The notes under the pieces are model-generated. The model made no database searches and was not told the origin of the DNA. It saw only the letters and a program-made list of their open reading frames with translations. A stretch of 64,000 nucleotides of DNA. Origin: Collimonas sp. OK242. GTDB lineage: Bacteria; Pseudomonadota; Gammaproteobacteria; Burkholderiales; Burkholderiaceae_D. Shown piece by piece: positions 13,707 through 55,761 of the stretch. The first letter of the stretch is position 1; every line of letters starts with the position of its first letter. The stretch lies in NCBI RefSeq assembly GCF_900107095.1, contig NZ_FNOR01000002.1, positions 186,001 to 250,000 of the forward strand. Reading direction: 5' to 3'. The position numbers and the translations under genes were made by a program.

Positions 13707-13745
13707 GGAAGTTGTTCTTTCTCATTGAATTATCATCGTACGTTA

Positions 13746-41028: not shown

Positions 41029-41799
41029 TCAAGGGACGGTTCGGTTAAGCAAAAGACCGCGCATCAACTGGGCAGCATTCGTCGCATCTTGAGTTAATTG
41101 GTCCGTGACAATATATTCGACAGCGCCACTGTCGACAGTGATCCGAAATAGTCGGACTTTGTGATTCTCGGGAAGCCTCTTGAGCGTGACCACCTTGCCG
41201 CGTACCAACGCATCGCTATCGAATGCAATGTCGTTCGCCGTCCGATAGTTTTCATCCGGGCCGCCAGCATGCACCAATCGACTATCTTTTATGCGACACC
41301 AATACGTCTTTCCCAAACGCTCAACGAGCAGCATCAAATCACGCGTCGCGCACCAACTATTCATCAGCACGACCGAACAAGGAAGCCGCTGTCGATGCAC
41401 GACATTGACTAGCATATCCCCGACAGCCTGTTGCGCAGTCTTGCGCCCTTTTCCTGACACTATTACCCGCCGGTCTACCGGCAAGTAGGTTCCGGTTATC
41501 GGATTCACATAAAGGCAATCGATCACGTTGACATGTTGCCTCACGCCCGGCGTGCCGTCGTCAGAGGTGTGCGTCGCAGGCGCCCTCATGGAATGCGCTC
41601 TACTGATATCGAACACCAATAACGCACAGGGGTGCTCACTCAAACTTTCCCTAACCGTTCCTGGTGCTTGCCGCCCTGTTATCAAATATCCTGTGGCAGG
41701 CTCGGTCTTGCCATGCTCACGATTGTTCGTACTTCCCGCTATCTCTGGCAGCCTATGCTGGCTGTGTTGCTCCCGCACTGCACTCTCAATTCTTCCCAT
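41029..41799 (-). CDS. IS4/IS701-like transposase-derived protein, catalytic Asp substituted
   Basis: 256 residues. RNase-H-like DDE transposase core: LLVFDISRAHS (first Asp retained but DDT changed to DIS), INPITGTYLPVDRRVI, then VVLMNSWCAT, where active relatives have an Asp (ADSWYA); here it is Asn. Further YWCRIKDSRLV, ENHKVRLFRI and YIVTDQLTQDA. Homologous along its length to the gene at 53884, which is also substituted. No terminal repeats are evident. Either decayed or domesticated. A phased AT-rich octamer array lies about 100 bp upstream. Confidence 0.75.
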   Translation of the reverse strand: MGRIESAVREQHSQHRLPEIAGSTNNREHGKTEPATGYLITGRQAPGTVRESLSEHPCALLVFDISRAHSMRAPATHTSDDGTPGVRQHVNVIDCLYVNPITGTYLPVDRRVIVSGKGRKTAQQAVGDMLVNVVHRQRLPCSVVLMNSWCATRDLMLLVERLGKTYWCRIKDSRLVHAGGPDENYRTANDIAFDSDALVRGKVVTLKRLPENHKVRLFRITVDSGAVEYIVTDQLTQDATNAAQLMRGLLLNRTVP

Positions 41800-41901: not shown

Positions 41902-41931
41902 ATGATTATAGTATTATCATACAATGATAAT
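41902..41931. promoter_or_regulatory. phased octamer site S1 (3 units, 11-bp period)
   Basis: ATGATTAT-AGT-ATTATCAT-ACA-ATGATAAT, octamers starting at 41902, 41913 and 41924. Located in the divergent promoter region between the transposase-like gene (41799) and the spermidine-synthase-like gene (41960). Confidence 0.65.
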
Positions 41932-41959
41932 TAACGCTTTATAGCTAAAAGTACATTTC

Positions 41960-42940
41960 ATGCCCCACCGTTTGTTCTCAGCCGCAGAAAAGAGCTGTTT
42001 GGAGCGTCTTCATTTCGAGCAAAACACCTCGCTTCCTCTAGCCGAACGCATGCGCCCCATGCGTGACTACATCGAATCCTTGCTCCCCGCACAAAAATCG
42101 CCAACCAAGACTGCTTACATCGCCATGCTTTTAGACCGCTTTGATCAGCTGCTATCGCTTTCCAATAATGGAAAGCCGTTCATTTATCAGAAAAAAAACG
42201 CGGCATCTTTGCATTTTGATATTTGGTCGGTGCAAAGCGAGATGGACTCGAATTCTCCGGATGAGCTTGTGCTGGGGTACACGAAAACCATGATGGGATT
42301 CCTGCTTTTCAATACCGATCCGAAAAAAATTGCCATGATCGGCTTGGGCGGCGGCTCCCTTCCCAAATATTGCTATCGCTATCTGCCGGAAGCATCCATT
42401 GTCGTGGTGGAGAAGGATCCGGAAGTCATCGCCGTAAGGGAGCATTTCTGCATCCCGAAAGACGATGCGCGGTTTCAGGTGCTCTGTGCGGATGGGGCAG
42501 ATTTCGTCAACGACGCCGCCAACCTGTTTGATGTCCTGATCGTGGATGGTTTCGAAAGAACGGGGCAACCTGCGCAATTGTGCAGTCAATTCTTCTATGA
42601 CGACTGCCATCATGCATTGGCGCCAGACGGCATCATGGCAGTCAATCTATTGCACGCCGAATCGAAGAACAACATCATCCTCGATCGCATCCGCCATAGT
42701 TTTAACGATGCTGTCATTGCCATCGATGCGCAGGACTCGACGAACACGATTGTTTTCGCATGCAAGGGAGCGATGTTAGACCTGCCGGATCAGGTCGTGG
42801 CGGGACGGCTCCGCGGCCTTGTCTGTCAGCACACCGTCGATTTGCATCCGACCGCCCGGAGTATTCTGCTGCAACGCCGATTGAACAGGATTGCATGCTT
42901 GACCAGCGCCAATTCACGCACCAAGCCTAGGGCCTGTTAA
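41960..42940 (+). CDS. spermidine-synthase-like SAM-binding protein (C-terminus altered by MITE)
   Basis: 326 residues. The PABS/methyltransferase core has MIGLGGGSLPKYCYRYLPEA, VVVEKDPEVIAV and FDVLIVDGFERTG. In true spermidine synthases the last block is DSTDPxGP; here the first Asp stays and the second is Glu, so polyamine synthesis is doubtful. The last four codons (RAC plus stop) lie inside the MITE at 42927; without it the frame would end PSDKQ at 43124. A paralog follows at 44056. Confidence 0.85.
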   Translation: MPHRLFSAAEKSCLERLHFEQNTSLPLAERMRPMRDYIESLLPAQKSPTKTAYIAMLLDRFDQLLSLSNNGKPFIYQKKNAASLHFDIWSVQSEMDSNSPDELVLGYTKTMMGFLLFNTDPKKIAMIGLGGGSLPKYCYRYLPEASIVVVEKDPEVIAVREHFCIPKDDARFQVLCADGADFVNDAANLFDVLIVDGFERTGQPAQLCSQFFYDDCHHALAPDGIMAVNLLHAESKNNIILDRIRHSFNDAVIAIDAQDSTNTIVFACKGAMLDLPDQVVAGRLRGLVCQHTVDLHPTARSILLQRRLNRIACLTSANSRTKPRAC

Positions 42941-43113
42941 CATTCAATTTGGGAGTGCGAACGCGCGGCAGGCGTTGCGTGCCTAGGCGCAGCGACGCGA
43001 CCTGGCCGCGTTGCATGGCTTGCTGGGGCACCAGCCCCAGCTACGCCACGCGCCTTGCCAGCGCACGTTTTGGTTTGAACGCATCTCCCAAATTGAATGT
43101 TAACAGGCCCTAG
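42927..43113. mobile_element. MITE with 29-bp perfect inverted ends and CTAG duplication
   Basis: CTAGGGCCTGTTAACATTCA continuing to GGGAG (42927-42955) is the exact reverse complement of 43085-43113. Taking CTAG as a 4-bp target duplication, the element proper is 179 bp (42931-43109), G+C-rich inside and non-coding. CTAG fits the YTAR target of the IS5 subgroup, so an IS5-type transposase probably mobilised it. Excision restores the upstream gene's natural stop. Confidence 0.88.
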
Positions 43114-43125
43114 TGATAAGCAGTG

Positions 43126-43482
43126 ATGAAACGCAGCAAAGACAATGCAGGAATTGCCAAAACAAATCGCTCAGTTCGGCAATCCGGTTTTTCCTGGGAT
43201 GGCGAGATACTTGTTTTGAATATTCTCGGCAAACCGAGCGCAAAACAAGATGCCATTGGCAAGTTCAAAGGACATCAGCTCAAAGTCAGCGTCACGGCGG
43301 TGCCTCGCGCCGGCAAGGCAACCGACCATATGGTGCGTTTCCTTGCTGGAGAGTTCGGCGTGGCGACATCGGATATCGAAGTCGTGTTTGGCCGCATGAA
43401 TGTCAATAAGCAATTGCGCATCAAAGCCCCTAAGCGGCTGCCTGCCGTCATTGCCCAGCAGGAACTGGAAACCTTGGTTTGA
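43126..43482 (+). CDS. DUF167 (YggU) family protein
   Basis: 118 residues from the ATG at 43126. Core ILGKPSAKQDAIGKFKGHQL, VTAVPRAGKATDHMVRFLAG, VFGRMNVNKQLRIKAP matches the DUF167/YggU fold. Function unknown. Before the MITE, the preceding gene's TGA would have overlapped this ATG (TGATG), indicating a former coupled operon. Confidence 0.85.
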   Translation: MKRSKDNAGIAKTNRSVRQSGFSWDGEILVLNILGKPSAKQDAIGKFKGHQLKVSVTAVPRAGKATDHMVRFLAGEFGVATSDIEVVFGRMNVNKQLRIKAPKRLPAVIAQQELETLV

Positions 43483-44055
43483 CGCGGCTCAACTACACAT
43501 CTTCGCGCCTATTTTCGATGAAATATTCTTGGCTAGTCCTCAACATCTGCCGCGCATAATCGTTGATCGACAGTCGTCTAATTTGCCAGATGCCAGCAGC
43601 ATGCAATTCGGGGCGCTGTTCCAGGCGCTTCGCCCAATTTTCGTCACAAATTTCATTTTTTTTCATTCTTGGCGATCAAATTTTTTCAGAAAATACGTTT
43701 TTAAGACCAAGCCTTCAACCTTGTCCGCATTGCACTCGATTTCCTCTTCATCGCGCTTGATACAACTTACCCGCACCGCCTCCTGTTGGAAATCAGCACA
43801 TCGTTGCCATCGAAGCTTGCAGGCCATATCGCCGCAACTATTATAACAGTATGATAATATGAGTCGCATACAAAGATTGTGCGATGTCGCTTAAATAGGC
43901 TGTTTGGCAGAACGAATTCACCCCATTGATTGTCATAATTAGCCGGACATAAGGCCGAGAGAAGCCATGCATTTACGTCGATTGTCGGCGTACAACCGAG
44001 TTGTTGCTTCCGCTCAGCGCTCTAAGAATGCGCTGACATTTATCAGATCTCCCAT
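43483..44055. other. 570-bp intergenic region with octamer site
   Basis: AT-rich; a minus-strand frame of 68 codons (43663-43869) overlaps the octamer site and shows no family features, so I do not call it a gene. Site S2 (43840-43858) is the main signal. A plausible ribosome-binding region lies just before 44056. Confidence 0.4.
43840..43858. promoter_or_regulatory. phased octamer site S2 (2 units)
   Basis: ATTATAAC-AGT-ATGATAAT, octamers starting at 43840 and 43851, upstream of the second spermidine-synthase-like gene (44056). Same 11-bp period as S1 and S3-S5. Confidence 0.6.
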
Positions 44056-44928
44056 ATGAAAAATTCGCGTAGTGATGACAACATGACCCTTCTCGGCCGT
44101 TTCGAAGAGGTGCTGTATAAAAGCAAGGGAAAACCTTTCGTTTTCGACCATGAAGATATGCGCACTCTGCATTTCGATGGAAGATTCATTCAAAGCGCGA
44201 TGAGCATTTCAGCCCCGGACCAACTGATGCTCAGTTACACGCGGGCAATGATGGCGTTCTTGCTGTTTCATCCACAGCCCCGGCACGTCGTGATGATTGG
44301 ATTGGGTGGCGGCTCCCTTGCCAAATACTGCTATCGCAAATTGCCGACAACCCGCATAACCGTGCTTGAACTGGAGAGCGATGTCATCGCGTTGCGAGAA
44401 AAATTCGCCATTCCTGACGACGACGAGCGCTTTCAAGTCATCCATGCGGATGCTGCCGACTATCTGACTGCAATGGAAGAAAGAGCGGACGTCATCTTGC
44501 ACGACGGTTATGCTGCCGACGGTCTGGCGCCGTCGCTCAGCACCGAGGATTTTTATCAACTATGCCACGCCGCATTGGATCGAGATGGCGTTCTGGTATC
44601 GAATTTGTGGGGAGATGCTGCCGATCTGGTTCCCATGATGAAGCGGCTCTATGCCGTCTTTGATTGGCGCTTATGGTGGTGTAGTGCGAGTGGCAGTTTC
44701 AATCGCATTGTCTTTTCGGTCAAAAGCCTGGATGACGCCATGTTCCGTTCTGTACTTGCAAAGCGCGCGACACAACACGACCTGCGCCACAAGCTCGCAT
44801 TTTGTGACCTGGTTGATCGATTACAGACTGCCTGCGGTAAAAGCAGGTCTGATTTTGAGTTGATTGCGGGGGCAGACATGCTCGGCGCCTTCATGCAAGC
44901 TGATTATTCAGGCATCGAGGAGGAGTAG
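44056..44928 (+). CDS. second spermidine-synthase-like SAM-binding protein
   Basis: 290 residues; paralog of the 41960 gene: KPFVFDHEDMRTLHFDGRFI, MIGLGGGSLAKYCYRKLP, VLELESDVIALREKF and DVILHDGYAADGLAP. The second Asp of the canonical DSTDP motif is Ala here, and the first is kept. Both paralogs share LSYT/LGYTxxMMxFLLF before the SAM motif. It is probably a methyltransferase or a polyamine-like transferase; convergent with the Ehr operon, whose last gene ends 10 bp away. Confidence 0.85.
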   Translation: MKNSRSDDNMTLLGRFEEVLYKSKGKPFVFDHEDMRTLHFDGRFIQSAMSISAPDQLMLSYTRAMMAFLLFHPQPRHVVMIGLGGGSLAKYCYRKLPTTRITVLELESDVIALREKFAIPDDDERFQVIHADAADYLTAMEERADVILHDGYAADGLAPSLSTEDFYQLCHAALDRDGVLVSNLWGDAADLVPMMKRLYAVFDWRLWWCSASGSFNRIVFSVKSLDDAMFRSVLAKRATQHDLRHKLAFCDLVDRLQTACGKSRSDFELIAGADMLGAFMQADYSGIEEE

Positions 44929-44938
44929 CTCACATTCG

Positions 44939-45451
44939 TCATGCTCGCGTCGATACCGCCGTCAATATGCCCCGAAGAATGTCGACCGGCGCCGGCGGGC
45001 AGCCGGCGACAGTCACGTCGACCGGAATGACATTGGCGACGCGACCGCATGTGGCGTAATTCTCACCAAAAATTCCACCGCTACAAGCGCATTCTCCAAT
45101 GGCGACAACCAGTTTTGGATGGGGCGTGGCGTCATAGGTTTGCAACAGTGCTGCTTCCATATTTTTTGTCACCGGGCCGGTGACTAACAACATATCTGCA
45201 TGACGCGGACTGGCGACAAATTTAATACCCAGCCCCTCGATGTTGTAATAGGGGTTGCTCAGCGCGTGAATTTCCAGTTCACAGCCATTGCATGAGCCGG
45301 CATCGACTGCGCGAATGCATAGCGCGCGGCCAAGAGTACGGAGAATGTCCGTATGAAGTTGTTCACGCTGTGTTCGCCATGCATCGTTGGCGCCGGGCGC
45401 TGCTTCTGCCGGAATGCCGGCGCGCGCGATTTGCTTGAGAAGTAGCCACAT
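44939..45451 (-). CDS. hyfI: HyfI/NuoB-like small subunit with N2-type Fe-S cluster
   Basis: 170 residues. The four ligands of a [4Fe-4S] N2-type cluster are all present: Cys54 and Cys57 (GSCNGCELE), Cys121 (GECACSGG) and Cys151 (GCPPAP). Family: NuoB/HycG/HyfI. It is the last gene of the six-gene operon and its ATG overlaps the stop of the large subunit by one base (TGATG). Confidence 0.93.
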   Translation of the reverse strand: MWLLLKQIARAGIPAEAAPGANDAWRTQREQLHTDILRTLGRALCIRAVDAGSCNGCELEIHALSNPYYNIEGLGIKFVASPRHADMLLVTGPVTKNMEAALLQTYDATPHPKLVVAIGECACSGGIFGENYATCGRVANVIPVDVTVAGCPPAPVDILRGILTAVSTRA

Positions 45452-47010
45452 CAGAGGTCATGTCCTGAATAGCTGAGGTTGAAGGATTTGTTAATGAGCG
45501 GAAAATCCGGAACGATATTGCCCATGATGGCATGTTCCAGCACGGGCCAGTTCTGCCAGGAGGGATCATGGCAGTGGCAGCGGAGAATGTTTCCTTGGGC
45601 ATCATGCTCCAGCGCTACAAAAACAGCGCCGCGCCATCCCTCCACCCAGCCTGCGCCTACCCCATCGGTTACGGGCTCGGGCAAAGCGGCTGTGACAGCG
45701 CCATATGGTAATTGGCGCAGCATTTCCCGTAGCAGCCGCAGCGACTCGATGATTTCTTCGAACCGCACATATACGCGTGCAGCAACATCGCCATCGCGAT
45801 GTGTTGCCATGCGAAGATTCAACGCCGTGTAGGGTGCGATGGCATGATCGGAGGACCGCAGGTCCCATGCCTGGCCGCTGGCCCGTCCAGCCAGTCCGCA
45901 CAAACCAAGTTCCGCTGCCAGTTTTGGCAACACGCGTCCAGAGGAAATAAAACGATCCTGCAAGCCGGCATGCTCCTCGTAGATAAGCCGAAGCGCCTGG
46001 ACTTTCGTCTCAATGTATTCGCATTGGGCCATGATCAAGTTGACGCCATCCGCATCAAGATCCATCGCGGTCCCTCCGGGAATAATGCGATCCATCATGA
46101 AACGGTGTCCAAACAGCTGGGCGTTCAAGCGGACCCACTCCTCTTTCAACATCGTAAACTGCGCTTGGCCCAGCACAAAACCGGCATCGTTTCCGATCGC
46201 CCCCAAATCGCCCAGGTGATTGGCAATCCGCTCGCGCTCCAGCAGCAGCGCACGCAGCCATTGGGCGCGCGGTGGAATCTGGCATGCCGTGGCAGCCTCG
46301 GCCGCCATGCAATATGCCCATGCAAAGGCCACCGTGGAATCACCGGAGATCCGGCCGGCAAGCTGATAGCCATTGGCGAGCTGGCGCTGCGTAAAAAGTT
46401 TATCTACGCCTTTATGCGTATAGCCAAGGCGTTGTTCCAGGCGCAATACCTTTTCGCCGACGACCGAGAACCGAAAATGGCCGGGCTCGATAATGCCTGC
46501 ATGAATCGGGCCTACGGCGATTTCATGGACGCCGTCACCGGCTACCGTCACAAACGCATAATTTTCCAGAGGCGAGTTGAATTGTTCCTGGCCAGAGAAC
46601 GGTTGGCGCAGCGGAAAATAATCCTTAGGCCAGCGCCCATGCTGAATCCAGGGGCGAAGATCATCTGCCCCGTTTGCGCGCAAGCCCAACAGGTCGAACG
46701 CGGCGCGCTGCATCCGCAGCGCGCCAGGAAACACGCCGGAAAGGTCGGGATATCCGTCCTGTTCGCTCACCACTAACCGAAGCCAAAGCACGCCCTCTGC
46801 GACGCAATACGCAGCCGACATGATCCATTGATCGGCCAGCGGTCGTTTGTCCGTACCCCAAAGCGAAAGCAGCCGCCCTCCTTCTGCACGAATGATGCTT
46901 GCAATATGCAGCCAATCCTGCGCGCCGACATCCGCAGTGCACACGGGCGCCATTCCCGGCAGCGCGGTAAAGGGGACCGCATATCGTGCGACAAGCGCTT
47001 CAATGTCCAT
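45451..47010 (-). CDS. hyfG: HyfG/HycE-like large subunit lacking all NiFe-binding cysteines
   Basis: 519 residues: N-terminal NuoC-like domain (about 1-130), then a NuoD/HycE-like domain (GVDKLFTQRQLANGYQLAGR, HRFMMDRIIPGG, RSSDHAIAPYTAL). In hydrogenases the first ligand motif is RVCGIC; here residues 219-225 read GRISGDS. The C-terminal DPCxxC is replaced by NLSYSGHDL. No NiFe site can form, as in energy-converting hydrogenase-related (Ehr) complexes. It probably couples an unknown redox or conformational process to ion pumping. Confidence 0.92.
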   Translation of the reverse strand: MDIEALVARYAVPFTALPGMAPVCTADVGAQDWLHIASIIRAEGGRLLSLWGTDKRPLADQWIMSAAYCVAEGVLWLRLVVSEQDGYPDLSGVFPGALRMQRAAFDLLGLRANGADDLRPWIQHGRWPKDYFPLRQPFSGQEQFNSPLENYAFVTVAGDGVHEIAVGPIHAGIIEPGHFRFSVVGEKVLRLEQRLGYTHKGVDKLFTQRQLANGYQLAGRISGDSTVAFAWAYCMAAEAATACQIPPRAQWLRALLLERERIANHLGDLGAIGNDAGFVLGQAQFTMLKEEWVRLNAQLFGHRFMMDRIIPGGTAMDLDADGVNLIMAQCEYIETKVQALRLIYEEHAGLQDRFISSGRVLPKLAAELGLCGLAGRASGQAWDLRSSDHAIAPYTALNLRMATHRDGDVAARVYVRFEEIIESLRLLREMLRQLPYGAVTAALPEPVTDGVGAGWVEGWRGAVFVALEHDAQGNILRCHCHDPSWQNWPVLEHAIMGNIVPDFPLINKSFNLSYSGHDL

Positions 47011-48468
47011 TCATCGCTCCACAATCATATCGACTGCCTGTCGAAACCAGCCGTTCAGGTAGGGCGGGATATACAAGCCAAGCATGAGCGCCAGGCCAAG
47101 ATGAATAAAGACAGGTAACAGCGCCGGCGAGTGCGGCAACGGTTTCGCGGTCGTTTCGCCAAAGACCATTTCCTTCACACGAGAAAAAATCGCGGCAAAC
47201 GCGACGCCCAAGGCCAATAGGAGTATCGGCGTCGCCCATGGCAATTCGCGCATGGCGGTGGTCACGATCAGGAATTCGCTGGCGAACACCCCAAACGGCG
47301 GCATGCCGAGGATCGCGAGCGCTCCCAATAGCATGCCCCAGCCGACGGTCGGACTGACTTTTACCAAGCCGCGGATATTATCCATGACCTGGGTGCCGGC
47401 TTTCTGTGTTGCATGGCCGACGGTAAAGAAAATGGCCGATTTCACCAGTGAATGTACCGTCATGTGCAGCAATCCGGCGTAGGTCGCGATGGGGCCGCCG
47501 ATACCAAATGCAAAAGTCATGAGCCCGATATGCTCGATCGACGAGTAAGAAAACATGCGCTTGACATCCTTTTGCCGCGACAAGGAAAACGTCGCGACCA
47601 GCACCGAAAGCAAGCCGAAGCCGACCAGCAACTTGCCAGGCATGCCGTTGTGCAAGGCGCCGTCCGCCAGCACTTTGAAGCGCAGCACCGCATAGAGTGC
47701 GACATTGAGCAAAAGGCCCGACAGCACCGCCGAGATCGGTGTCGGCCCTTCAGCATGGGCGTCGGGCAGCCAGCTATGCAACGGCACCAACCCCATCTTG
47801 GTGCCGTAGCCCACCAGCAGGAATACGAATGCGAGCGACATGATGGCTGGTTCGAGCTGCGTCTTCACGCTATTCAAATTAGTCCACAACAAGGCGTCGG
47901 TGTCGCCGCCTAGTTGACGATCGGCAGCCAGGTACAGAAGTATCGTGCCGAACAGCGCCAGTGCGATGCCGACCCCGCACAAAATGAAATATTTCCAGGC
48001 GGCCTCCAGGCTCGCCGCGGTGCGATACACGCTCACCAGCAGAACGGTCGCCAGGGTCGCGCCTTCCATCGCCACCCACAAGATGCCCATGTTATTGGTC
48101 ATCAGCGCAAGCAGCATGGTGAACATGAACAGCTGGTACATGCTGTGGTACAAGCGCATGCGATTTGGCGTCATCTTGCCGTGATCGCGTTCGATGCGCA
48201 TGTATGGTCGCGAAAACAAAGATGTCGTCAAACCGACGAAGGCCGTCAAGGTGACGAGGAAGACGTTGAGCGGATCGATAAAAAACAATTTCCCAAACGC
48301 GAACGCGGGGCCGCTGGCGATGATGTTTGCCGTCAGCACGACTGCCGCGGCAAAGGTCGTCAGGCTGAATCCGACATTGATTTCCGGCGCCGCATCGCGC
48401 TGACCGGCCAGGCCTAGCGTGACGCCGCCAAGCAAGGGGGTGAGCAGGACGATCAGCAATGGATACAT
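47011..48468 (-). CDS. hyfF: HyfF-like proton-translocating membrane subunit
   Basis: 485 residues, about 14 membrane helices, NuoL/M/N antiporter family: SVYRTAASLEAAWKYFILCG, HSWLPDAHAEGPTPISAVLSG and RMFSYSSIEHIGLMTFAFG with the conserved Lys and His of the ion channel. One base separates it from the large subunit gene. It conducts H+ or Na+ in the inner-membrane arm of the complex. Confidence 0.92.
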   Translation of the reverse strand: MYPLLIVLLTPLLGGVTLGLAGQRDAAPEINVGFSLTTFAAAVVLTANIIASGPAFAFGKLFFIDPLNVFLVTLTAFVGLTTSLFSRPYMRIERDHGKMTPNRMRLYHSMYQLFMFTMLLALMTNNMGILWVAMEGATLATVLLVSVYRTAASLEAAWKYFILCGVGIALALFGTILLYLAADRQLGGDTDALLWTNLNSVKTQLEPAIMSLAFVFLLVGYGTKMGLVPLHSWLPDAHAEGPTPISAVLSGLLLNVALYAVLRFKVLADGALHNGMPGKLLVGFGLLSVLVATFSLSRQKDVKRMFSYSSIEHIGLMTFAFGIGGPIATYAGLLHMTVHSLVKSAIFFTVGHATQKAGTQVMDNIRGLVKVSPTVGWGMLLGALAILGMPPFGVFASEFLIVTTAMRELPWATPILLLALGVAFAAIFSRVKEMVFGETTAKPLPHSPALLPVFIHLGLALMLGLYIPPYLNGWFRQAVDMIVER

Positions 48469-48469
48469 G

Positions 48470-49129
48470 TCAGTCTTCTTTCAAACTTTCCAGATTATGG
48501 ATGTCGAGATTGTCGAATTGCTCGCGGATCTGGAACATGAATACTCCGAGTATCAAAATGCCGACCAGAATGTCGAGTGCAATGCCGAGTTCGACGATCA
48601 TCGGCATGCCGTTGGTTGCTGCTGTCGCGGCGAAAAACAGACTATTCTCCATGGCGAGAAAGCCAATCACCTGCGGTACCGCCTTGGAGCGGGTGATCAT
48701 CATCATCAGGGACAGAAGGATGCAGGCCAGCGCAATGCCGAGGGTGCCGCGCGCGACGGAGGAAGATAACCTGGCGATGGGCAATGCGAGATTGAACGCG
48801 ATAATCACCAGCACAATCCCAATCAGCATCGTGGTGGGAATATTGATCAGCGGTTCGACGTCCCATTTGACGTCCAGACGCAGTATCAGCCGATGCAGTA
48901 TCCACGGGATGAATATCACTTTCAGCAGCAAGGTCAATGCGGCGGAAAAGTAGAGGTCGTTATCATGCGTGATGAATGCCACCACCAGAGCGGACGTGAC
49001 CAGGGTCGCCCCATGCAAGGTATAGAGGCGAATCAAGGACAGAATCCTGCGCTGGCTGAGCATGGCGAAATTGAGCATCAGCAGCGTGGCGGCCAGCATG
49101 TTGATGAGTTGTACGGCGAAATGCGTCAT
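48470..49129 (-). CDS. hyfE: HyfE-like NuoK-related membrane subunit
   Basis: 219 residues, six or so helices; the C-terminal part (MVELGIALDILVGILILGVF) carries the acidic residue of the NuoK-like domain, and the N-terminal extension is typical of HyfE. It lies 1 bp from both neighbours. Confidence 0.9.
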   Translation of the reverse strand: MTHFAVQLINMLAATLLMLNFAMLSQRRILSLIRLYTLHGATLVTSALVVAFITHDNDLYFSAALTLLLKVIFIPWILHRLILRLDVKWDVEPLINIPTTMLIGIVLVIIAFNLALPIARLSSSVARGTLGIALACILLSLMMMITRSKAVPQVIGFLAMENSLFFAATAATNGMPMIVELGIALDILVGILILGVFMFQIREQFDNLDIHNLESLKED

Positions 49130-49130
49130 C

Positions 49131-50081
49131 TTAGGCTCCCAGCAGGAAATGCACGAGCATGCCGATGACCGCCAGCAAAAACGCTGTCGTCAGGAATTCC
49201 GGCACCCGGAAAATACGCATCTTGGCGCTGCTCATTTCGATCAGCGCCAGCAAGGCGCCGCCAATGGCAAGCTTCACCGCCAGGATCGGCAGCGACAGGA
49301 GCAACGCGAATGTGTGGTTGGCGTCGGCGATTCCCCAAGGGAAAAAGATGGCGATGCCGATGCATGAATAGGCAAACAATTTGAGGCTGGCAGCCCACTC
49401 CATGAGTGCGAGATGCCGGCCCGAGTATTCGAGCAGCAAGGCCTCATGAATCATGGTCAGTTCCAGGTGCGTCGCCGGATTGTCGACCGGTATGCGGGCG
49501 TTTTCTGCCAGCGAGATCATCGTAAACGCCACACCGGCGAAGGCCATGCTGGGGTAAATCGCCAGCTCCCGATGCACCAGAGTGTCGACGATGCTCGTCA
49601 ACAGGGTCGACTGCGTAATCAGGGATGCCGAAAACAACACCATCAGCAGTGCCGGTTCCGCCAGGAAACCCACCAGCATCTCGCGCCGAGCTCCCATGGT
49701 GCCGAAAGCGGTACCGATATCCATGGCCGCCAGCGAGATGAAAACGCGTGCCAAGGCGAGCAATCCAACCAATGCAATAGCGTCGGCGGCGGGAGACAGA
49801 GGCAAGTTGGTCGATAGCGTCGGGATGATGCCACAGGCCAGTGTCATGCAGCCGAACACGATGTAGGGGGCGAGACGAAACAATGCGGTGGCGTGTTCAG
49901 CCAGCACCGACTCTTTATGGAACAGTTTATGCAGCATGCGATACTGCTGCAGGAGAGGAGGAGCGGATTTATTTTGCAGCCATGCCCGACACTGGTTAAC
50001 CCATCCCGTCAATAGCGGCGCTGCGGCCAGCGCCAACAGAATTTCCAGGCATTGCGAGACAAAACCGACGGCGGTGATCAT
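49131..50081 (-). CDS. hyfC: HyfC/NuoH-like membrane subunit
   Basis: 316 residues from the ATG at 50081; the open frame extends 47 codons further but inside the upstream gene and without family character. NuoH/HycD features: MLHKLFHKESVLA, TAFGTMGARREMLVGFLAEPALL, RIPVDNPATHLELTMIHEAL, SLKLFAYSC. This subunit links the redox arm to the membrane arm. ATGA overlap with the gene before it. Confidence 0.92.
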   Translation of the reverse strand: MITAVGFVSQCLEILLALAAAPLLTGWVNQCRAWLQNKSAPPLLQQYRMLHKLFHKESVLAEHATALFRLAPYIVFGCMTLACGIIPTLSTNLPLSPAADAIALVGLLALARVFISLAAMDIGTAFGTMGARREMLVGFLAEPALLMVLFSASLITQSTLLTSIVDTLVHRELAIYPSMAFAGVAFTMISLAENARIPVDNPATHLELTMIHEALLLEYSGRHLALMEWAASLKLFAYSCIGIAIFFPWGIADANHTFALLLSLPILAVKLAIGGALLALIEMSSAKMRIFRVPEFLTTAFLLAVIGMLVHFLLGA

Positions 50082-52087
50082 AGCGTCACCACCAGCAGCA
50101 ACAGCAGTAACGTCAGGAAGCTGTAGACCAGGTACACCGCGATGCGGCCGTGCTGCAGCATGCCGACGACGCGCGCAATGCGTTCGGCGCCGGCGGCGAT
50201 CGGACGATATAGCCACGGCCAAAATGGATCTTCAATCGTTACCCTGTAGTGCGGCGCTTTATCAAATGCTGTCGGCAATTCGCGCGTCATTCTAAAAAAC
50301 GGGCCAAAAATCTCGCGAATCGGCTGACCAAAACCTTCCGCGGTATCTTGCATGCGCGCGCTTTGAAAAGGGTATCCGCAGCCCCAGGGCGCAGCGCGCC
50401 TGAAGCGGCCATGATAGAAGCGCCGTACCAGCAAATAGGCTAGCAGGCAGCACACAATCAGCATCATCATAAACACTGCGGGCGTGTAACTCGCGCGCTG
50501 CGGGGCGACCGGCGCCAGCAGCAACCAGCCGTTCTTGGCGACGGTGGTGGCGATGCCTTCGCCGACCAGGAGGTGCGTGACCTGGCTAAGCACTGTCACC
50601 ATTTGAACCGGGAACAAACCAACAAACAGGCAGACCGCGACCAGCCATCCAAAACTGAGACATTCCCAGCGGTCGGCGTCGTGCGCCTGGTTCAGTTTTT
50701 GCTCGCGAGGTTGACCGAGAAAAATAATCCCGAAGAACTTGACCATCACGTAACCGGCCAAGGCGCCCACCAAGGCAATCACCGCAGCAACGATAGGAAT
50801 AAGCATGTTCAGAAATGAATTGGGCAATCCCGGGGTAAACAAGAAACTTTGCAACAGCAGCCATTCGGAGACAAAGCCGCCCAGCGGCGGCAGGCCGGCA
50901 GCGGCCAGCGCCCCGATCAGTACCGCCCATCCGGTCCAGGGCATGAAGCGCATGAGCCCCCCTAATCGTCCGAGATTGCGCTCGCCGGTCGCATGCAGCA
51001 CGGTGCCGGTGCCGAGGAAAAGCAGGCATTTGAACGCGGCGTGGCTGGCTACATGATAGAGCGCTGCCGTCAGCGACAGTGCAGCCAGGCTGGTCATGCC
51101 ATAGGCGCGAAATAGCAGCGCCAAGCCGATGCCGGCAAAGATCAGCCCGACATTTTCAATCGACGAATAGGCAAGCAGGCGCTTCATATCGGTTTGGACC
51201 GCGGAGAGCACGACGCCGAACAAGGCAGTGGCCAGGCCGACCGCCAACGCCACCCCGCCCCACCACCACACTTGAATATGCAGCAGATCGAACGTGACCC
51301 GCAGCACGCCGTAAATCCCGGTCTTCAACACAAAGGCACTCATCAGCGCAGAGATCGGCGATGGCGCTGCCGGGTGCGCTTCCGGCAGCCAGACATGCAA
51401 TGGCAATATCCCTGCCTTGGCCCCGAATCCGAATAGCGCAAGAAAGAAAGCAATCGATGCCCAAAATAGTTCCACATGCTGAAGGCGCATGTTGGCAAAG
51501 GTGTAGTCGCCGGTATTGGCTTGCAGCAGGCCGAAGCACAGCAACAGTGCGAGCGCGCCGATATGCGATATCAGCAAGTATAGAAAGCCCGCGTAGCGTA
51601 CTTCGGGCAGGCGATGATTGGCGATCACCAGTAGCGTGGCCGACAAGGTCATCGTTTCCCATGCGACCATGAACACGTACGCGTCGTCAGCAATCAACAA
51701 CAACGCCATGCTGGCAAGGCAGGTATGATATTCAAGGCATAAGAGCCCTGGCGGCGTCCCCTCGCCGTGCCGGAAATAGCCGGCAGAAAAAAGAGAAACG
51801 CCCGTACTAACCATGCCGAGAACGACGAGAAAATAGGAAGATAAACTGTCGAGCCGCAGATGAAACGGCAAACCGGGTAGGCCCAACGAGAGGATGGCGA
51901 TTTGTGGCGAGCCAAAACAGCTGAGCAAACCAACGATGCCCAGCATCACCCCGAGCACAGCGCCAAGCGGAAACAGCAGATGGGCCACAATCGCAGTGCG
52001 TTTCATGACGAATAGGCCACAGGCGCCAATCACAAGCCACCCGGCTACGATCAGTAGTATGTAGTCTATCGCAAGCAAGTCTGCCAC
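50078..52087 (-). CDS. hyfB: HyfB-like antiporter-type membrane subunit (GTG start)
   Basis: 669 residues from GTG at 52087 (GAGGAG upstream). NuoL-like with about 16 helices: GILPLHVWLPEAHPAAPSPISALMS, RLLAYSSIENVGLIFAGIG, ASHAAFKCLLFLGTG. It is the first gene of the operon hyfB-C-E-F-G-I; hyfD, the ferredoxin-like hyfA/hyfH, hyfR and formate dehydrogenase are absent. Divergent from the RHH gene at 52314, with octamer site S3 between them. Confidence 0.92.
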   Translation of the reverse strand: MADLLAIDYILLIVAGWLVIGACGLFVMKRTAIVAHLLFPLGAVLGVMLGIVGLLSCFGSPQIAILSLGLPGLPFHLRLDSLSSYFLVVLGMVSTGVSLFSAGYFRHGEGTPPGLLCLEYHTCLASMALLLIADDAYVFMVAWETMTLSATLLVIANHRLPEVRYAGFLYLLISHIGALALLLCFGLLQANTGDYTFANMRLQHVELFWASIAFFLALFGFGAKAGILPLHVWLPEAHPAAPSPISALMSAFVLKTGIYGVLRVTFDLLHIQVWWWGGVALAVGLATALFGVVLSAVQTDMKRLLAYSSIENVGLIFAGIGLALLFRAYGMTSLAALSLTAALYHVASHAAFKCLLFLGTGTVLHATGERNLGRLGGLMRFMPWTGWAVLIGALAAAGLPPLGGFVSEWLLLQSFLFTPGLPNSFLNMLIPIVAAVIALVGALAGYVMVKFFGIIFLGQPREQKLNQAHDADRWECLSFGWLVAVCLFVGLFPVQMVTVLSQVTHLLVGEGIATTVAKNGWLLLAPVAPQRASYTPAVFMMMLIVCCLLAYLLVRRFYHGRFRRAAPWGCGYPFQSARMQDTAEGFGQPIREIFGPFFRMTRELPTAFDKAPHYRVTIEDPFWPWLYRPIAAGAERIARVVGMLQHGRIAVYLVYSFLTLLLLLLVVTL

Positions 52088-52262
52088 TGCTGCTCCTCAC
52101 CTCTGTTCGTCACTTCCGATGCGCAACGCAGCGATGAACGTATAATATTTGGCTTGGTATTGACCAGTGCATCCAGCACAATGACGCAGATTGATGCGCC
52201 CGGTGACTGAACGGCGCCACACTCGACTGAATACAACAGAAACGCGAAATGTTAATGCATCC

Positions 52263-52290
52263 AATTATAATCACATTATAATGTAATCAC
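52263..52290. promoter_or_regulatory. phased octamer site S3 in the hyf/RHH divergent promoter
   Basis: ATTATAAT-CAC-ATTATAAT (52264, 52275), followed by GTAATCAC. Positioned between hyfB (start 52087) and the RHH gene (start 52314), so one site could control both directions. Confidence 0.65.
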
Positions 52291-52313
52291 TGCAACTATC
52301 ATAGAGTATAACC

Positions 52314-52514
52314 ATGGAAAACAAAACAGCTCGACTCACCGTGCTCGTGGATCCCATTAAGAAAAAAGCCTTTGAGGAACTGTGCGCAGGACAAGATCTA
52401 ACGCCGTCTCAAGTCGTGCGCCAGCTCATGCGCGAATACATGACGCGCTATGGCGTTGACTACAGCACGAAGAGCCGTATTGCCGACAAAGAGGCCAGTC
52501 TGCCAGCAGCATGA
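52314..52514 (+). CDS. ribbon-helix-helix (CopG/Arc) regulator, copy 1
   Basis: 66 residues. TARLTVLVDPIKKKAFEELC forms the beta-ribbon and first helix, LTPSQVVRQLMREYM the second helix of an RHH fold. About 80 percent identical over the first 54 residues to the product at 55558. It is the best candidate for binding the 11-bp-phased octamers, as RHH dimers bind short AT-rich repeats side by side. Confidence 0.88.
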   Translation: MENKTARLTVLVDPIKKKAFEELCAGQDLTPSQVVRQLMREYMTRYGVDYSTKSRIADKEASLPAA

Positions 52515-52570
52515 GCCAGATGTTGGCCGCGTGACCGTCGTCGCCAGGACAGTTGGCGATCAAATGGCGG

Positions 52571-53338
52571 CTAGGCGCGTTTTCTGATCCTGTGCAAACG
52601 CATGAATACGTCATCCAGAATCGGAACGGCAGCAAGGATCAACAGCAAAAATGCGAGCGGCACCGTCGACATGAATCCGATGTGCTTGAAACTCATCCCG
52701 CCGGCAACGCCGCCCACAAAAAACATCGACAGCAATAGCAATAGCAGCTTTAGCCGCTTTCGATTTGCCAACACCATCGGCTTGCTCGGCCGCTCTCTCT
52801 CCATGTTCCAGTAAAACAGTTTGCCCAATTCAATGCCGATGTCGGTCACCAATCCGGTCACATGGGTGGTGCGTATTTCGGCCTTGGAAATCTTGGTGAT
52901 GATGGCATTTTGCAGCCCCATGATGAAGCACAGCAGCATCACGGTGACGGGAATGAATAATCCCATGTGCAAGGACAAATTGGCGCCGAGCAGCCCGAAA
53001 CACAGCAGCAGAAACGCTTCCAATAGCAGGGATGATGCATATTCGCTATGCAGTCGCTTGCGACGTGCCCAGTTGATCAGGATTGCCGAACAGGCGGCCC
53101 CGGCAAGGAACGACAGCACGGCCCCCAAGCCGGCAAGTGCCAGAGACACATTGCCCAAAGCCAGGTCGTCCGACATGGCGGCAATGATGCCGGACATGTG
53201 CGACGTATATTGGCGTACCGCCAAAAATCCCCCCGCATTCGTGGCGCCCGCCACAAAGGCCAGCGTCAATCCGAGATGTTCATTGGCTTCAACGCTGCGT
53301 TTTCTACCGGTTAAACGGCGCAAGAAATAGATGGCCAT
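52571..53338 (-). CDS. DUF1275 (YoaK) family membrane protein
   Basis: 255 residues, six hydrophobic segments: LTLAFVAGATNAGGFLAVRQYTSHMSG is the family signature at the N-terminus, with LQNAIITKISKAEIRTTHVTGLVTDIGIELG in the middle. Function unknown. It converges on the RHH gene and may be preceded by a 44-codon frame at 53348. Confidence 0.88.
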   Translation of the reverse strand: MAIYFLRRLTGRKRSVEANEHLGLTLAFVAGATNAGGFLAVRQYTSHMSGIIAAMSDDLALGNVSLALAGLGAVLSFLAGAACSAILINWARRKRLHSEYASSLLLEAFLLLCFGLLGANLSLHMGLFIPVTVMLLCFIMGLQNAIITKISKAEIRTTHVTGLVTDIGIELGKLFYWNMERERPSKPMVLANRKRLKLLLLLLSMFFVGGVAGGMSFKHIGFMSTVPLAFLLLILAAVPILDDVFMRLHRIRKRA

Positions 53339-53347
53339 AATTGATCG

Positions 53348-53482
53348 CTATTCCTCCGCCTGCGCTGTCAACGGATCGAAAAAAATCCGCCACAGGCATG
53401 CCCGGGCAATGGTGCGGGCACCTTCAGCATTCAGAGCGATCACCGTGACCGGGATGCACTTGATAACGCGGCTCATGCGCAT
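53348..53482 (-). CDS. possible 44-residue protein upstream of DUF1275
   Basis: MRMSRVIKCIPVTVIALNAE, then ARACLWRIFFDPLTAQ, stop 10 bp before the DUF1275 start. No ribosome-binding site is strong and no family is recognised; it could be a leader or chance. Confidence 0.25.
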   Translation of the reverse strand: MRMSRVIKCIPVTVIALNAEGARTIARACLWRIFFDPLTAQAEE

Positions 53483-53720
53483 TAATCCTAGTAGGGACAA
53501 CATCAATGTCAGTACGAATGGGCGGCCGCGATGCTGGTGGCAGATGGGCTGACCGACGCGTTAATTAACGTGGACTACATCTGCATGCCCACCGTCAATC
53601 CAGGTCGGAACATTCGCTTAATATGTGCATTATATTATCATCCACTGTTGATTGCGTGTTATTTCCTCGGCTTGACGTCTTAATTTTTCATGCTTTTAAT
53701 GCGCAATTACAACAACATTT

Positions 53721-53739
53721 ATTATCATTACATTGTAAT
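53721..53739. promoter_or_regulatory. phased octamer site S4
   Basis: ATTATCAT-TAC-ATTGTAAT (53721, 53732), 145 bp upstream of the second transposase-like gene. A weaker pair, ATGTGCAT-TAT-ATTATCAT, sits at 53623-53641, same 11-bp period. Confidence 0.55.
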
Positions 53740-53883
53740 CATACTTACATTTAAGAGTGATAAAATGCGGTATGCATATGGGATCTGACGCTCCCCTTCA
53801 ACCCGCACACATGGCAAAAGGGTAAATGGCCGGCGCTCGGCCTGGCATTTTCTGAATGCGTCAAAGCGGACAAGCGTGTCGGG

Positions 53884-54663
53884 ATGGCCGGCACTGGTAT
53901 CAGACGGGAGCGGAAATTGGAAAAAATACGGAACCTGGCTACTTTTCTACGCGCGTGGGAAACACCCCGCCTGGCTTGGAAAGCACCCGAACCTAAATTG
54001 GCATCCCATGCGAACGGCTTGATCGTCTTTGATCTCACGGTTACCCAAAAAAAATATACTTTCGGCGCCGCCATGGCGCACGGCGACGGCAACATAAATT
54101 CCCCATCCAACGCGAGCGAAATAATCAATTGCATCTACATCAACCCGATTAGCCAGGTATGTTGGGTGCTGGATCATCGAGTACTTGCCTCGGATAAAGA
54201 TGGCAAGACCACACTTGATCATGTGCGGGACATGCTAAACAAGGCAATACGCAATAAGGCAACACCGTTTTCAACCGTGCTGATGAAGCGGTGGTACGCA
54301 ACGGAAGCGCTCATGCTGCTCATAGACCGTTACGGTAAAGCGTACTGGTGCCCGATCAGAAATAATCGCCTGGCCGACGACGGCGACGGAGCGGATAAAT
54401 ACAAATCCGTGAAGAGCGTTGTCTTTGGCGCTGACGCTTTGCGGCACGGTAAAGTGGTCAAACTCAAAAGCTTTCCGGGCGACCATCCGGTGAAATTGTT
54501 TCGGATCGTCGGCGCCGACGGAGAGTTGGATCATGTGGCCACCAATCAGCTGAACGAGGACGCAGTGGAAGCAGCGCAACTGATGGGCGGTGTGTATTGG
54601 AAAACCGAGAAATCGCCAACGCTGCACCGGCCCGCCAAGCGCAGGTCGGAACGCTGGTGGTAG
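53884..54663 (+). CDS. second IS4/IS701-like transposase-derived protein, catalytic Asp substituted
   Basis: 259 residues, homologous to the 41029 product: LIVFDLTVTQKKYTF, INPISQVCWVLDHRVLASDK, then TVLMKRWYAT, where active relatives have ADSWYA; the second catalytic Asp is Lys. C-terminal GDHPVKLFRIVGADGELDHV and ATNQLNEDAVEAAQLMGG. The frame is intact, the catalysis cannot be. It points away from the 41029 copy, so the two bracket the Ehr/spermidine-synthase block. Confidence 0.75.
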   Translation: MAGTGIRRERKLEKIRNLATFLRAWETPRLAWKAPEPKLASHANGLIVFDLTVTQKKYTFGAAMAHGDGNINSPSNASEIINCIYINPISQVCWVLDHRVLASDKDGKTTLDHVRDMLNKAIRNKATPFSTVLMKRWYATEALMLLIDRYGKAYWCPIRNNRLADDGDGADKYKSVKSVVFGADALRHGKVVKLKSFPGDHPVKLFRIVGADGELDHVATNQLNEDAVEAAQLMGGVYWKTEKSPTLHRPAKRRSERWW

Positions 54664-54708
54664 TGGAACGCGCCCTATTCTTGTGGACATCCATCCCGTT
54701 GAGTTGAA

Positions 54709-55083
54709 TTACTCTTTGGGGTAAGGCACCGGCAGGTAGATTAATCCGGGCGCCAGGCAACATGCACGCCGGTCCTCCTGGATTTCCCCTTTAGGCGGGA
54801 AAATGTGATCGAACTGGTAGTCAACCCCGTGTATGGCGGCATAACGGTAAATCTGCGTCCCCATATAACTGCCTATCACTTCGGTCATGGCATCCGCATG
54901 TTCAAAGCGGAACGATGAAGATAGGGGCGCATCCGATTCGGTTTCGTTGATATCCATTGCCTCCAGACCCAGGTTTCCGGTCTGGCCGCTGCCAAGATAC
55001 GTTGCCCAGAATATCACCACCAATCCGAGCGCAACGAACACCGCATACACCACTACCTCTCGGAATTCCATGACGAACCTCAT
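54709..55083 (-). CDS. single-pass membrane protein, unknown
   Basis: 124 residues; one helix at about 9-28 (VVVYAVFVALGLVVIFWATY), then a soluble acidic domain with FRFEHADAMTEVIGSYMGTQ and CCLAPGLIYLPVPYP. Not recognised. It converges on the transposase-derived gene. Confidence 0.55.
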   Translation of the reverse strand: MRFVMEFREVVVYAVFVALGLVVIFWATYLGSGQTGNLGLEAMDINETESDAPLSSSFRFEHADAMTEVIGSYMGTQIYRYAAIHGVDYQFDHIFPPKGEIQEDRRACCLAPGLIYLPVPYPKE

Positions 55084-55510
55084 AAAATGGACGACCTATT
55101 CCAGGCGGCGGATGGATGATCCAAGATCGCTGGCAGATCCATGGCCTGGCGCGAAAGTAGTGGCAAAACAACCGCCAAACAGTTCGAACGCCACGAACAA
55201 GCCTTAGATCACAAACTCTGAGAATCCCATGATGTACCGCGCACACCGCCTTCTATTTATCAATATAGTGGATTTGTGACACGTTCTTGCAATTATTTCA
55301 CCATGTATTTGCAATGCCCTCCGGGCCTGCCAGCGCCGATTTTGGAAGGGCAAACCGGCACTCAGGCTTGCACTGCGAAGTGCCGGATACGCTCAAATCA
55401 GGTAGGCAGTTTACGCATAGACGATGGCGCCAGGACATCTGCCACTTTGGCTGAAAAGCCAGGCTGCAAGCCATGCAGCAAAACGTTGGACGACAATCTC
55501 AAAATATCAA

Positions 55511-55529
55511 ATTATAATTAGATGATAAT
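55511..55529. promoter_or_regulatory. phased octamer site S5
   Basis: ATTATAAT-TAG-ATGATAAT (55511, 55522), 29 bp before the second RHH gene: likely autoregulation. Confidence 0.65.
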
Positions 55530-55557: not shown

Positions 55558-55761
55558 ATGGAAGTTAAAACAGCTCGTTTAACCGTGCTGATCGATCCCG
55601 TGAAGAAGAAGGCGTTTGAAGACCTGTGCGCTGCGCAAGACCTGACGCCATCCCAAGTCGTTCGCCAACTTATTCGCGACTACCTTGAGCGGCATGGCGT
55701 GAACTACAGTACGAAGAGCCAACTTCTCGGCGCCAATCTCAAGGCGCAGGACAAAGACTAG
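55558..55761 (+). CDS. ribbon-helix-helix (CopG/Arc) regulator, copy 2
   Basis: 67 residues from the ATG at 55558 (GGTGGAACC upstream). TARLTVLIDPVKKKAFEDLC and LTPSQVVRQLIRDYL, differing from copy 1 mainly in conservative changes; C-termini diverge after STKS. Both genes have an octamer pair about 25-50 bp before their starts. The DNA-contacting ribbon TARLTVL is identical in both, so they probably read the same site. Confidence 0.88.
   Translation: MEVKTARLTVLIDPVKKKAFEDLCAAQDLTPSQVVRQLIRDYLERHGVNYSTKSQLLGANLKAQDKD

Follow-up and report, generated by a model that had tools for sequence, protein, structure and literature searches.

The block between 41 and 56 kb of a 64,000-nucleotide stretch of the Collimonas sp. 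OK242 genome (hereafter the window, meaning the whole stretch of DNA analysed) carries genes for two small ribbon–helix–helix (RHH) proteins, two spermidine-synthase-like proteins and a Hyf-like membrane complex, and AT-rich octamers recur every 11 bp in the gaps before many of them. Reading of the letters recovers all five phased sites reported in a first-pass annotation, as well as a weaker sixth, at every coordinate given there (see table). The unit shared by the sites, ATKATMAT (K = G or T, M = A or C), reads the same on both strands when taken as a degenerate word, and a 3-bp gap between two units produces the 11-bp period. The array before the first spermidine-synthase-like gene (SpdS1) has 0 mismatches to the pattern ATTATCATnnnATGATAAT at 41913 and 1 mismatch to the degenerate 19-mer ATKATMATnnnATKATMAT at 41902. 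The weaker array at 53623 is taken as real because its ATGTGCAT-nnn-ATTATCAT form is also found before SulP genes in several Pseudomonas loci.

The annotation described the octamers as lying before nearly every transcription unit of the block. This is true of most units, but the YggU gene (43123), the open reading frame (ORF) at 54709–55083 and gspC (55804) lack a site of their own. hyfB does have one, at a distance of 176 bp, in the gap that separates it from the divergent RHH1 gene, and the two genes share this site. The genes named as transposase-derived are remnants of IS701 type and probably bystanders.

Features of the 41–56 kb block (window positions; octamer letters as read in the window, with start positions in brackets; RHH_9 is Pfam family PF19839)
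Feature	Coordinates	Strand	Octamers	Location or basis
Three phased octamers	41902..41931	.	ATGATTAT (41902), ATTATCAT (41913), ATGATAAT (41924)	before spermidine-synthase-like gene 1; letters read, pattern search
Spermidine-synthase-like gene 1 (SpdS1)	41960..42940	+		Spermine_synth domain
Octamer pair	43840..43858	.	ATTATAAC (43840), ATGATAAT (43851)	197 bp 5′ of spermidine-synthase-like gene 2; 1 mismatch to degenerate 19-mer
Spermidine-synthase-like gene 2 (SpdS2)	44056..44928	+		Spermine_synth domain
Hyf-like membrane complex operon (B, C, E, F, G, I type subunits)	44939..52087	-		family search
Octamer pair	52264..52282	.	ATTATAAT (52264 and 52275)	divergent RHH1/hyfB intergenic region; 0 mismatches to degenerate 19-mer
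RHH1, 66 aa, RHH_9, proposed regulator	52314..52514	+		Pfam profile match
DUF1275 protein gene, possible target	52571..53338	-		family search
Weaker array, up to three octamers	53623..53652	.	ATGTGCAT (53623), ATTATCAT (53634), possible third CTGTTGAT (53645)	between DUF1275 gene and IS remnant
Octamer pair	53721..53739	.	ATTATCAT (53721), ATTGTAAT (53732)	between DUF1275 gene and IS remnant; 1 mismatch to degenerate 19-mer
Octamer pair	55511..55529	.	ATTATAAT (55511), ATGATAAT (55522)	5′ of RHH2; TATAAT within first octamer, ACGACA 17 bp earlier
RHH2, 67 aa, RHH_9 paralogue, proposed regulator	55558..55761	+		Pfam profile match

Octamer sites and RHH_9 genes across genomes

That both small proteins are of the RHH type is borne out by their matches to RHH_9, at 80.0 and 80.9 bits against a gathering score of 23.4. 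Their relatives made it possible to follow the octamers beyond the window. The set of loci used comprises the best-scoring 80 of at least 562 confirmed relatives, mainly from Pseudomonas and Burkholderiales, with 73 distinct proteins, 73 distinct upstream stretches and 1.43 Mb of sequence in total.

Within 150 bp 5′ of the RHH gene, two octamers with a 3-bp gap occur in 41 of the 80 loci at 1 mismatch and in 63 at 2, such that fixed-spacing repeated sites with an 11-bp period stand in the gene's own promoter in 63/80 RHH_9 loci and the proposed tie between the 11-bp phase and RHH genes holds well outside Collimonas. The fifteen other gaps between 0 and 15 give 0/80 at 1 mismatch, save for 2/80 at gap 14, which corresponds to a 22-bp period. 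When 2 mismatches are allowed, none of them exceeds 16/80, a count reached at gaps 0 and 6 and probably owed to the octamer's likeness to itself after a shift of 3. Among distinct upstream regions, octamer-to-octamer distances from 5 to 45 bp fall on 11 bp in 59 cases and on 22 bp in 4, with at most 3 at any other distance, and shuffled upstream regions yield 0.04 pairs at 11 bp. The position of the site is nearly as constant as its spacing: counted from the start codon of the RHH gene, it begins between −51 and −39 in 60/63 loci, and at exactly −46 in 30.

The same preference is seen across the full 1.43 Mb, where gap 3 accounts for 37, 64 and 115 sites at 0, 1 and 2 mismatches, the totals being 3 to 5 for gaps 1, 2, 4, 5 and 7, with 8 sites for gap 10 and 34 for gap 8 at 2 mismatches. 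At a limit of 1 mismatch, gap 14 has 20 sites and any other gap apart from 3 has no more than 3. Counted by locus at up to 2 mismatches, 76/80 have at least one site somewhere, compared with 32 for gap 6 and 3 to 5 for gaps 1, 2, 4, 5 and 7.

Nor is the pair equally frequent elsewhere, the outcome that would have spoken against a regulon; instead, sites cluster at RHH_9 genes both in the genome itself and in its relatives, and their number in the block is far above chance expectation. Searching the 4.98-Mb Collimonas genome with ATTATCATnnnATGATAAT at up to 2 mismatches returned five places, all of them inside the block. The degenerate 19-mer at up to 1 mismatch returned eight, six of which lie in the block that holds both RHH_9 genes, matching the clustering expected of a genome-wide scan for the phased pair. 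The other two are a perfect match on another contig, at a second locus of the genome (C16:26917), and position 1892 of the window. At up to 2 mismatches, the 19-mer occurs at 18 places, against 3 for the reversed pattern, which at up to 1 mismatch is found at 0 places in this genome and 4 in all 60 genomes sampled. The reversed pattern understates chance, since reversal makes the word richer in TA and hence rarer, and relatives without an RHH_9 gene were therefore preferred as background.

The sample of 60 genomes includes Collimonas sp. OK242, and an RHH_9 gene, called at E 0.001, is present in 12 of them. A site at up to 1 mismatch occurs in 9 of these 12 (25 sites, 15 perfect), compared with 14 of the 48 genomes without the gene (17 sites, or about 0.35 per genome, 1 perfect). 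In the eight other RHH_9-bearing genomes with a site, 17/17 sites lie within about 2.2 kb of an RHH gene. Comparison of site and gene tables in a further ten genomes, selected for carrying RHH_9, gave a similar picture: eight have sites, 32 in total, and 27/32 fall within 10 kb of an RHH_9 gene, or 23/28 if two sites repeated on three contigs of one genome (G068) are counted once. Of the five remote sites, one is in G063 and four are in G065, an Acinetobacter whose locus L132 has 38% G+C. Taken together, these counts make for a strong pairing of gene and site across several genera.

Two stray matches to ATTATCATnnnATGATAAT at 3 mismatches lie elsewhere in the window. The one at 1892 is placed in a different palindrome between a TetR-type gene and a short-chain-dehydrogenase gene, and the one at 13729 immediately precedes a TetR-type gene that runs leftward; both gene types were assigned by eye. 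They look like operators of other regulators, and the match at 1892 is probably unrelated to the RHH_9 sites.

At the protein level, the 80 loci agree without exception at 23 of the first 50 residues, among them K4, A6, R7, T9, C24 and Y50, although the loci were fetched via two conserved peptides, so that conservation at residues 9–18 and 27–34 is partly by construction. Ten proteins of nearer genomes likewise all keep R7, T9 and C24 but vary at K4 and Y50. By analogy with other RHH ribbons, T5, R7 and T9 would face the DNA. An AlphaFold model of the single chain contains helices at 14–26 and 31–45 (mean pLDDT 80.3). The five best fold matches, at E 0.13 to 1.1, are two PutA chains, two DinJ chains and the Arc-type chain 1myl; a chain titled Arc ranks tenth. 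A sequence search of the PDB brought up no solved relative, with the RHH proteins ORF56, 56B and ParG matching weakly at E 0.3 to 0.9, and its TALE-repeat rows were set aside as repeat-driven chance matches. Viral contigs held a single relative, on a short stretch.

Promoter layout and candidate targets

In 42 of the 63 loci with a site before the RHH gene, the last six bases of octamer 1 are preceded, at a distance of exactly 17 bp, by a hexamer like TTGACA (5 of 6). These six bases mostly read TATAAT, TACAAT or TAGAAT. A match of 5 of 6 at any of three spacers has a uniform chance of 0.014, with the proviso that many of the loci come from related Pseudomonas. Given a −35-like hexamer at 17 bp, octamer 1 probably coincides in part with the −10 box and octamer 2 falls around the transcription start, as would be expected of a repressor site. 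In the window, RHH2 has ACGACA, 17 bp and TATAAT (10 of 12), and the hyfB strand of the shared site has ATGATA, 16 bp and TATAAT (10 of 12). Weaker fits are found for RHH1 and for the leftward strand at 53634 (9 of 12 each). As several offsets were tried, all of these window scores are only suggestive.

Which genes the sites precede was counted in the 80 loci, taking a site from −30 to 400 bp upstream of a gene and using gaps 1, 2, 4 and 5 as controls. A site accompanies 66/84 RHH, 36/56 SulP, 22/24 malic enzyme, 11/11 isocitrate dehydrogenase, 10/11 glycine-transporter family and 6/6 GNAT genes, as well as 1/1 for PEP (phosphoenolpyruvate) carboxykinase (PEPCK), 1/1 for NAPRT and 1/2 for NhaP. 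The control gaps yield 3 for RHH, 2 for SpdS and 0 for every other gene class. These control gaps are the test, while the assignment of 208/216 sites to a gene class is description, and the references for malic enzyme, isocitrate dehydrogenase, glycine transporter, PEPCK, NhaP, NAPRT, GNAT and a 76-aa protein were picked after the sites had been seen. The last of these (L084:18016–18243, minus strand) has no NCBIfam match and has relatives in 40/80 RHH_9 loci; 34/49 of its genes have a site, 51–136 bp upstream, and the protein may belong to the core of the system. At two loci (L071:19170–19500 and L084:15310–15640), the leader between site and isocitrate dehydrogenase gene resembles a decayed RHH_9 frame by eye, more clearly in L071, and these isocitrate dehydrogenase genes may once have had an RHH gene of their own. 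Two parallel loci of a Marinobacter (G064 C9 and C25; L138 and L166) carry similar sets of RHH, PEPCK, malic enzyme, SulP and SpdS genes, with sites of their own at nearly equal positions and in different letters.

One SulP protein (from L050) scores best against the model of the C4-dicarboxylate transporter DauA, albeit below its cut-off, and the company of genes suggests a C4-dicarboxylate or decarboxylation theme in Pseudomonas and Marinobacter. In the window itself, tblastn at E 0.001 found no match to SulP, malic enzyme or the 76-aa protein, and the leaders of DUF1275 and SpdS2 held no small ORF that was convincing by eye.

Of the spermidine-synthase-like genes, neither SpdS1 nor SpdS2 reaches the cut-off set by NCBIfam for its polyamine aminopropyltransferase equivalogs. 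In six relatives (G002, G014, G008, G009, G006 and G030; loci L050–L055), the RHH gene accompanies such genes, both in five of them and SpdS1 alone in G030, and in all six the RHH gene and the SpdS group are each preceded by a site cluster of their own. The SpdS group is headed in five of the six by a YkgJ-like CxxCxxCC gene, which in G030 lies nearby in the opposite orientation, and four of the six have a SulP gene. In G024 and G034, the SulP gene adjoins the RHH gene, with a site between them or close by. The site placed by the annotation before the spermidine-synthase-like genes is thus not peculiar to the window: it is kept before the operon in 7/7 close SpdS1 orthologous loci (L168–L174), as opposed to a 2-mismatch match in 1/23 distant SpdS-like loci (L175–L197). 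The perfect match at C16 in the Collimonas genome precedes YkgJ, SpdS1 and SpdS2, a second copy of the operon, with flanking genes that look by eye like those of L050 and no match to RHH or SulP within the 16-kb stretch. With a perfect site but no RHH gene nearby, this copy may be controlled in trans by RHH1 or RHH2, or may have lost an RHH gene recently.

For the remaining neighbours the case is less certain. In the window and at L058 and L060, a site lies between RHH and hyfB, which are arranged head to head; at the last two loci it has 2 mismatches, and at L063 a 2-mismatch site lies 138 bp before hyfB. Control of hyfB is plausible, but it is inseparable from RHH autoregulation because the site is mostly common to both; that of DUF1275 shares the lesser certainty. 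The Hyf loci of relatives cover about 2 to 3.5 kb around one subunit, and their lack of sites therefore says little. As for the complex itself, nickel-binding cysteine motifs mark the large subunit of group 4 [NiFe] hydrogenases. None was seen by eye in the HyfG-like large subunit (45451–47010), for which no motif search was made, and its best families are of NuoD type. Given a large subunit that seems to be without these cysteines, the complex is probably hydrogenase-related without being a hydrogenase.

The block also bears traces of mobile DNA. A 187-bp element resembling a miniature inverted-repeat transposable element, with perfect 29-bp terminal inverted repeats, lies between SpdS1 and the YggU gene (42927–43113), and segments of it recur widely in the genome, in 61 matching pieces. 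IS701-type transposase remnants, below the family cut-off and 38% alike over 212 residues, are found near both block ends (41029–41799 and 53884–54663). Between the surroundings of the two remnants and the sites, shared DNA amounts to 10–11 bp matches only, which argues against transport of the sites by an insertion sequence (IS).

A probable regulator and its proposed operators

The octamer observation is real, and the reading of it as a regulon is largely right. Judging from sequence comparison, it is highly likely that the two RHH_9 proteins of the block have their operators in the phased octamers, and octamers and proteins very probably form a real local control system. The best reading is that of an autorepressed regulator with a small, mostly local regulon, whose dimers would sit side by side on one face of the DNA. 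One RHH dimer would bind each near-palindromic octamer through its two-stranded ribbon, with the side bearing T5, R7 and T9, and the 11-bp period would set neighbouring dimers on the same face, allowing contact and cooperative binding. Bound RHH_9 would then block RNA polymerase, since octamer 1 is the likely −10 box and octamer 2 lies near the transcription start. In this manner, the RHH gene would repress itself, and nearby operons as well as the unlinked copy of the spermidine-synthase-like operon would be held down by the same protein, with a ligand or the conserved Cys24 as possible release signals. Of the RHH regulon originally proposed, it is the gene–site pairing that the data bear out; binding, the direction of control and the choice of targets among hyfB, DUF1275 and the transposase remnants are its inferred parts. 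New relative to the annotation are the overlap of the operator with the likely −10 box in most related RHH promoters, the perfect site at a locus lacking an RHH gene, and wider targets in other genera, namely SulP, malic enzyme and isocitrate dehydrogenase.

Several results weigh against this reading. There is no site before the RHH gene in 17/80 loci, 13 of which have one elsewhere, and four (L107, L110, L121 and L123) have none at all at up to 2 mismatches; Cupriavidus RHH promoters look different. Nor are the 80 loci independent, with many from one genus and L127 and L130 identical over the compared stretch. Three of the 12 RHH_9 genomes (G024, G044 and G045) have 2-mismatch sites only, and G066 and G067 carry RHH_9 but no site at 1 mismatch. 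Among candidate targets, sites stand before only 1/3 HyfB, 3/19 DUF1275, 4/10 YkgJ and 9/26 SpdS genes. No −35/−10 pair reaching 9 of 12 was found at the SpdS1 and SpdS2 sites, or at 53721, and that of RHH1 reached only 9 of 12; with scores below or at the threshold, promoter blocking at SpdS1, SpdS2 and RHH1 is proposed with more reserve. Finally, the fold search gave no match at E ≤0.001, and the ribbon strand is absent from the AlphaFold model, which may be due to the folding of one chain only.

Could the octamers be nothing but AT-rich −10 elements, repeated at 11 bp by accident? The frequent TATAAT or TACAAT in octamer 1 and the −35-like hexamer 17 bp before it (42/63) fit this explanation, but a −10 box does not account for second and third octamers at exactly 11 and 22 bp, pairs of ATTATCAT and ATGATAAT words without TATAAT also occur, and the pair is rare in relatives without the RHH gene, making a promoter-only origin highly unlikely. 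Fur boxes come to mind because of similar hexamer words, as the Fur consensus also uses GATAAT and ATTATC. However, a Fur box is a 7-1-7 inverted repeat, which corresponds to gap 1 and is met 5′ of RHH in 0/80 loci at 1 mismatch and 1/80 at 2; moreover, the octamers differ in orientation and the sites keep company with RHH_9 genes, leaving Fur with next to no chance.

That another regulator travelling with these gene clusters owns the sites deserves a more careful answer, for the constancy of RHH_9 in the 80 loci is by construction, the loci having been fetched via the RHH gene, and its binding is itself deduced. Yet the whole-genome pattern searches, which did not start from RHH, also reach RHH_9 neighbourhoods (17/17 sites in the eight relatives, 27/32 in the ten genomes selected for RHH_9), neighbouring genes change from locus to locus, and the site keeps a nearly fixed distance in the RHH promoter, so that a different owner appears very improbable. 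Slimmer still are the prospects of an autoregulating antitoxin of a toxin–antitoxin pair, with all other sites as side effects. Many antitoxins do combine an RHH domain with autoregulation, as stated in PMC4803016, but among 82 RHH genes (the 80 loci and the two of the window) a same-strand frame of 60–130 aa follows directly 3′ in only 15, with differing lengths, and in 48 of 79 loci with a following ORF, that ORF is a SulP gene on the opposite strand. This survey of neighbouring frames shows no consistent toxin partner, although no search for toxin families was made.

If RHH_9 is indeed an autorepressor acting on these operators, the family gains an operator, an autoregulatory promoter layout and a list of targets across Pseudomonas and Burkholderiales, and one 66-residue protein would link central carbon genes, SulP transporters and poorly understood hydrogenase-like and spermidine-synthase-like operons. 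A bolder and rather unlikely extension is that RHH_9 is a conserved proteobacterial regulator of a C4-dicarboxylate or decarboxylation node (DauA-like SulP transporter, malic enzyme, isocitrate dehydrogenase, PEP carboxykinase) that works without a ligand domain, perhaps via Cys24, and was rewired in Oxalobacteraceae to the hydrogenase-like complex and the spermidine-synthase-like enzymes.

The mechanism is of a known class, whereas an RHH_9 operator and target set were not found described: among the open-licence PMC papers that the searches listed, judged by title and the opening of the abstract, none was seen to report a function for RHH_9 (PF19839) or an operator or regulon of it. A Bradyrhizobium CopG1 regulator is linked to secretion and a C4-dicarboxylate transporter gene, and the accessible part of that paper mentions neither an operator nor RHH_9 (PMC11201211). 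In AmrZ of Pseudomonas, likewise an RHH regulator, dimers place the ribbon, which inserts into the major groove, at two half-sites; its operator is another one, however, with GGC half-sites and an A/T-rich linker (PMC3325190). The Omega regulator of epsilon–zeta loci also binds short repeats as an RHH protein, but these are heptads, NATCACN, in a toxin–antitoxin locus rather than octamers every 11 bp (PMC4803016).

The best fold-search match to RHH_9 is the RHH domain of PutA (2ay0, TM normalised to target 0.76), at an E of only 0.13. In PutA, the RHH fold is a domain of a large enzyme with its own operator, in contrast to the free-standing RHH_9. Another likeness is to repressors of the Arc, MetJ and CopG type, small RHH dimers that occupy tandem, short, near-palindromic repeats at a fixed spacing over a promoter, and from which RHH_9 differs in protein family, in the word that it would recognise and in the 11-bp period.

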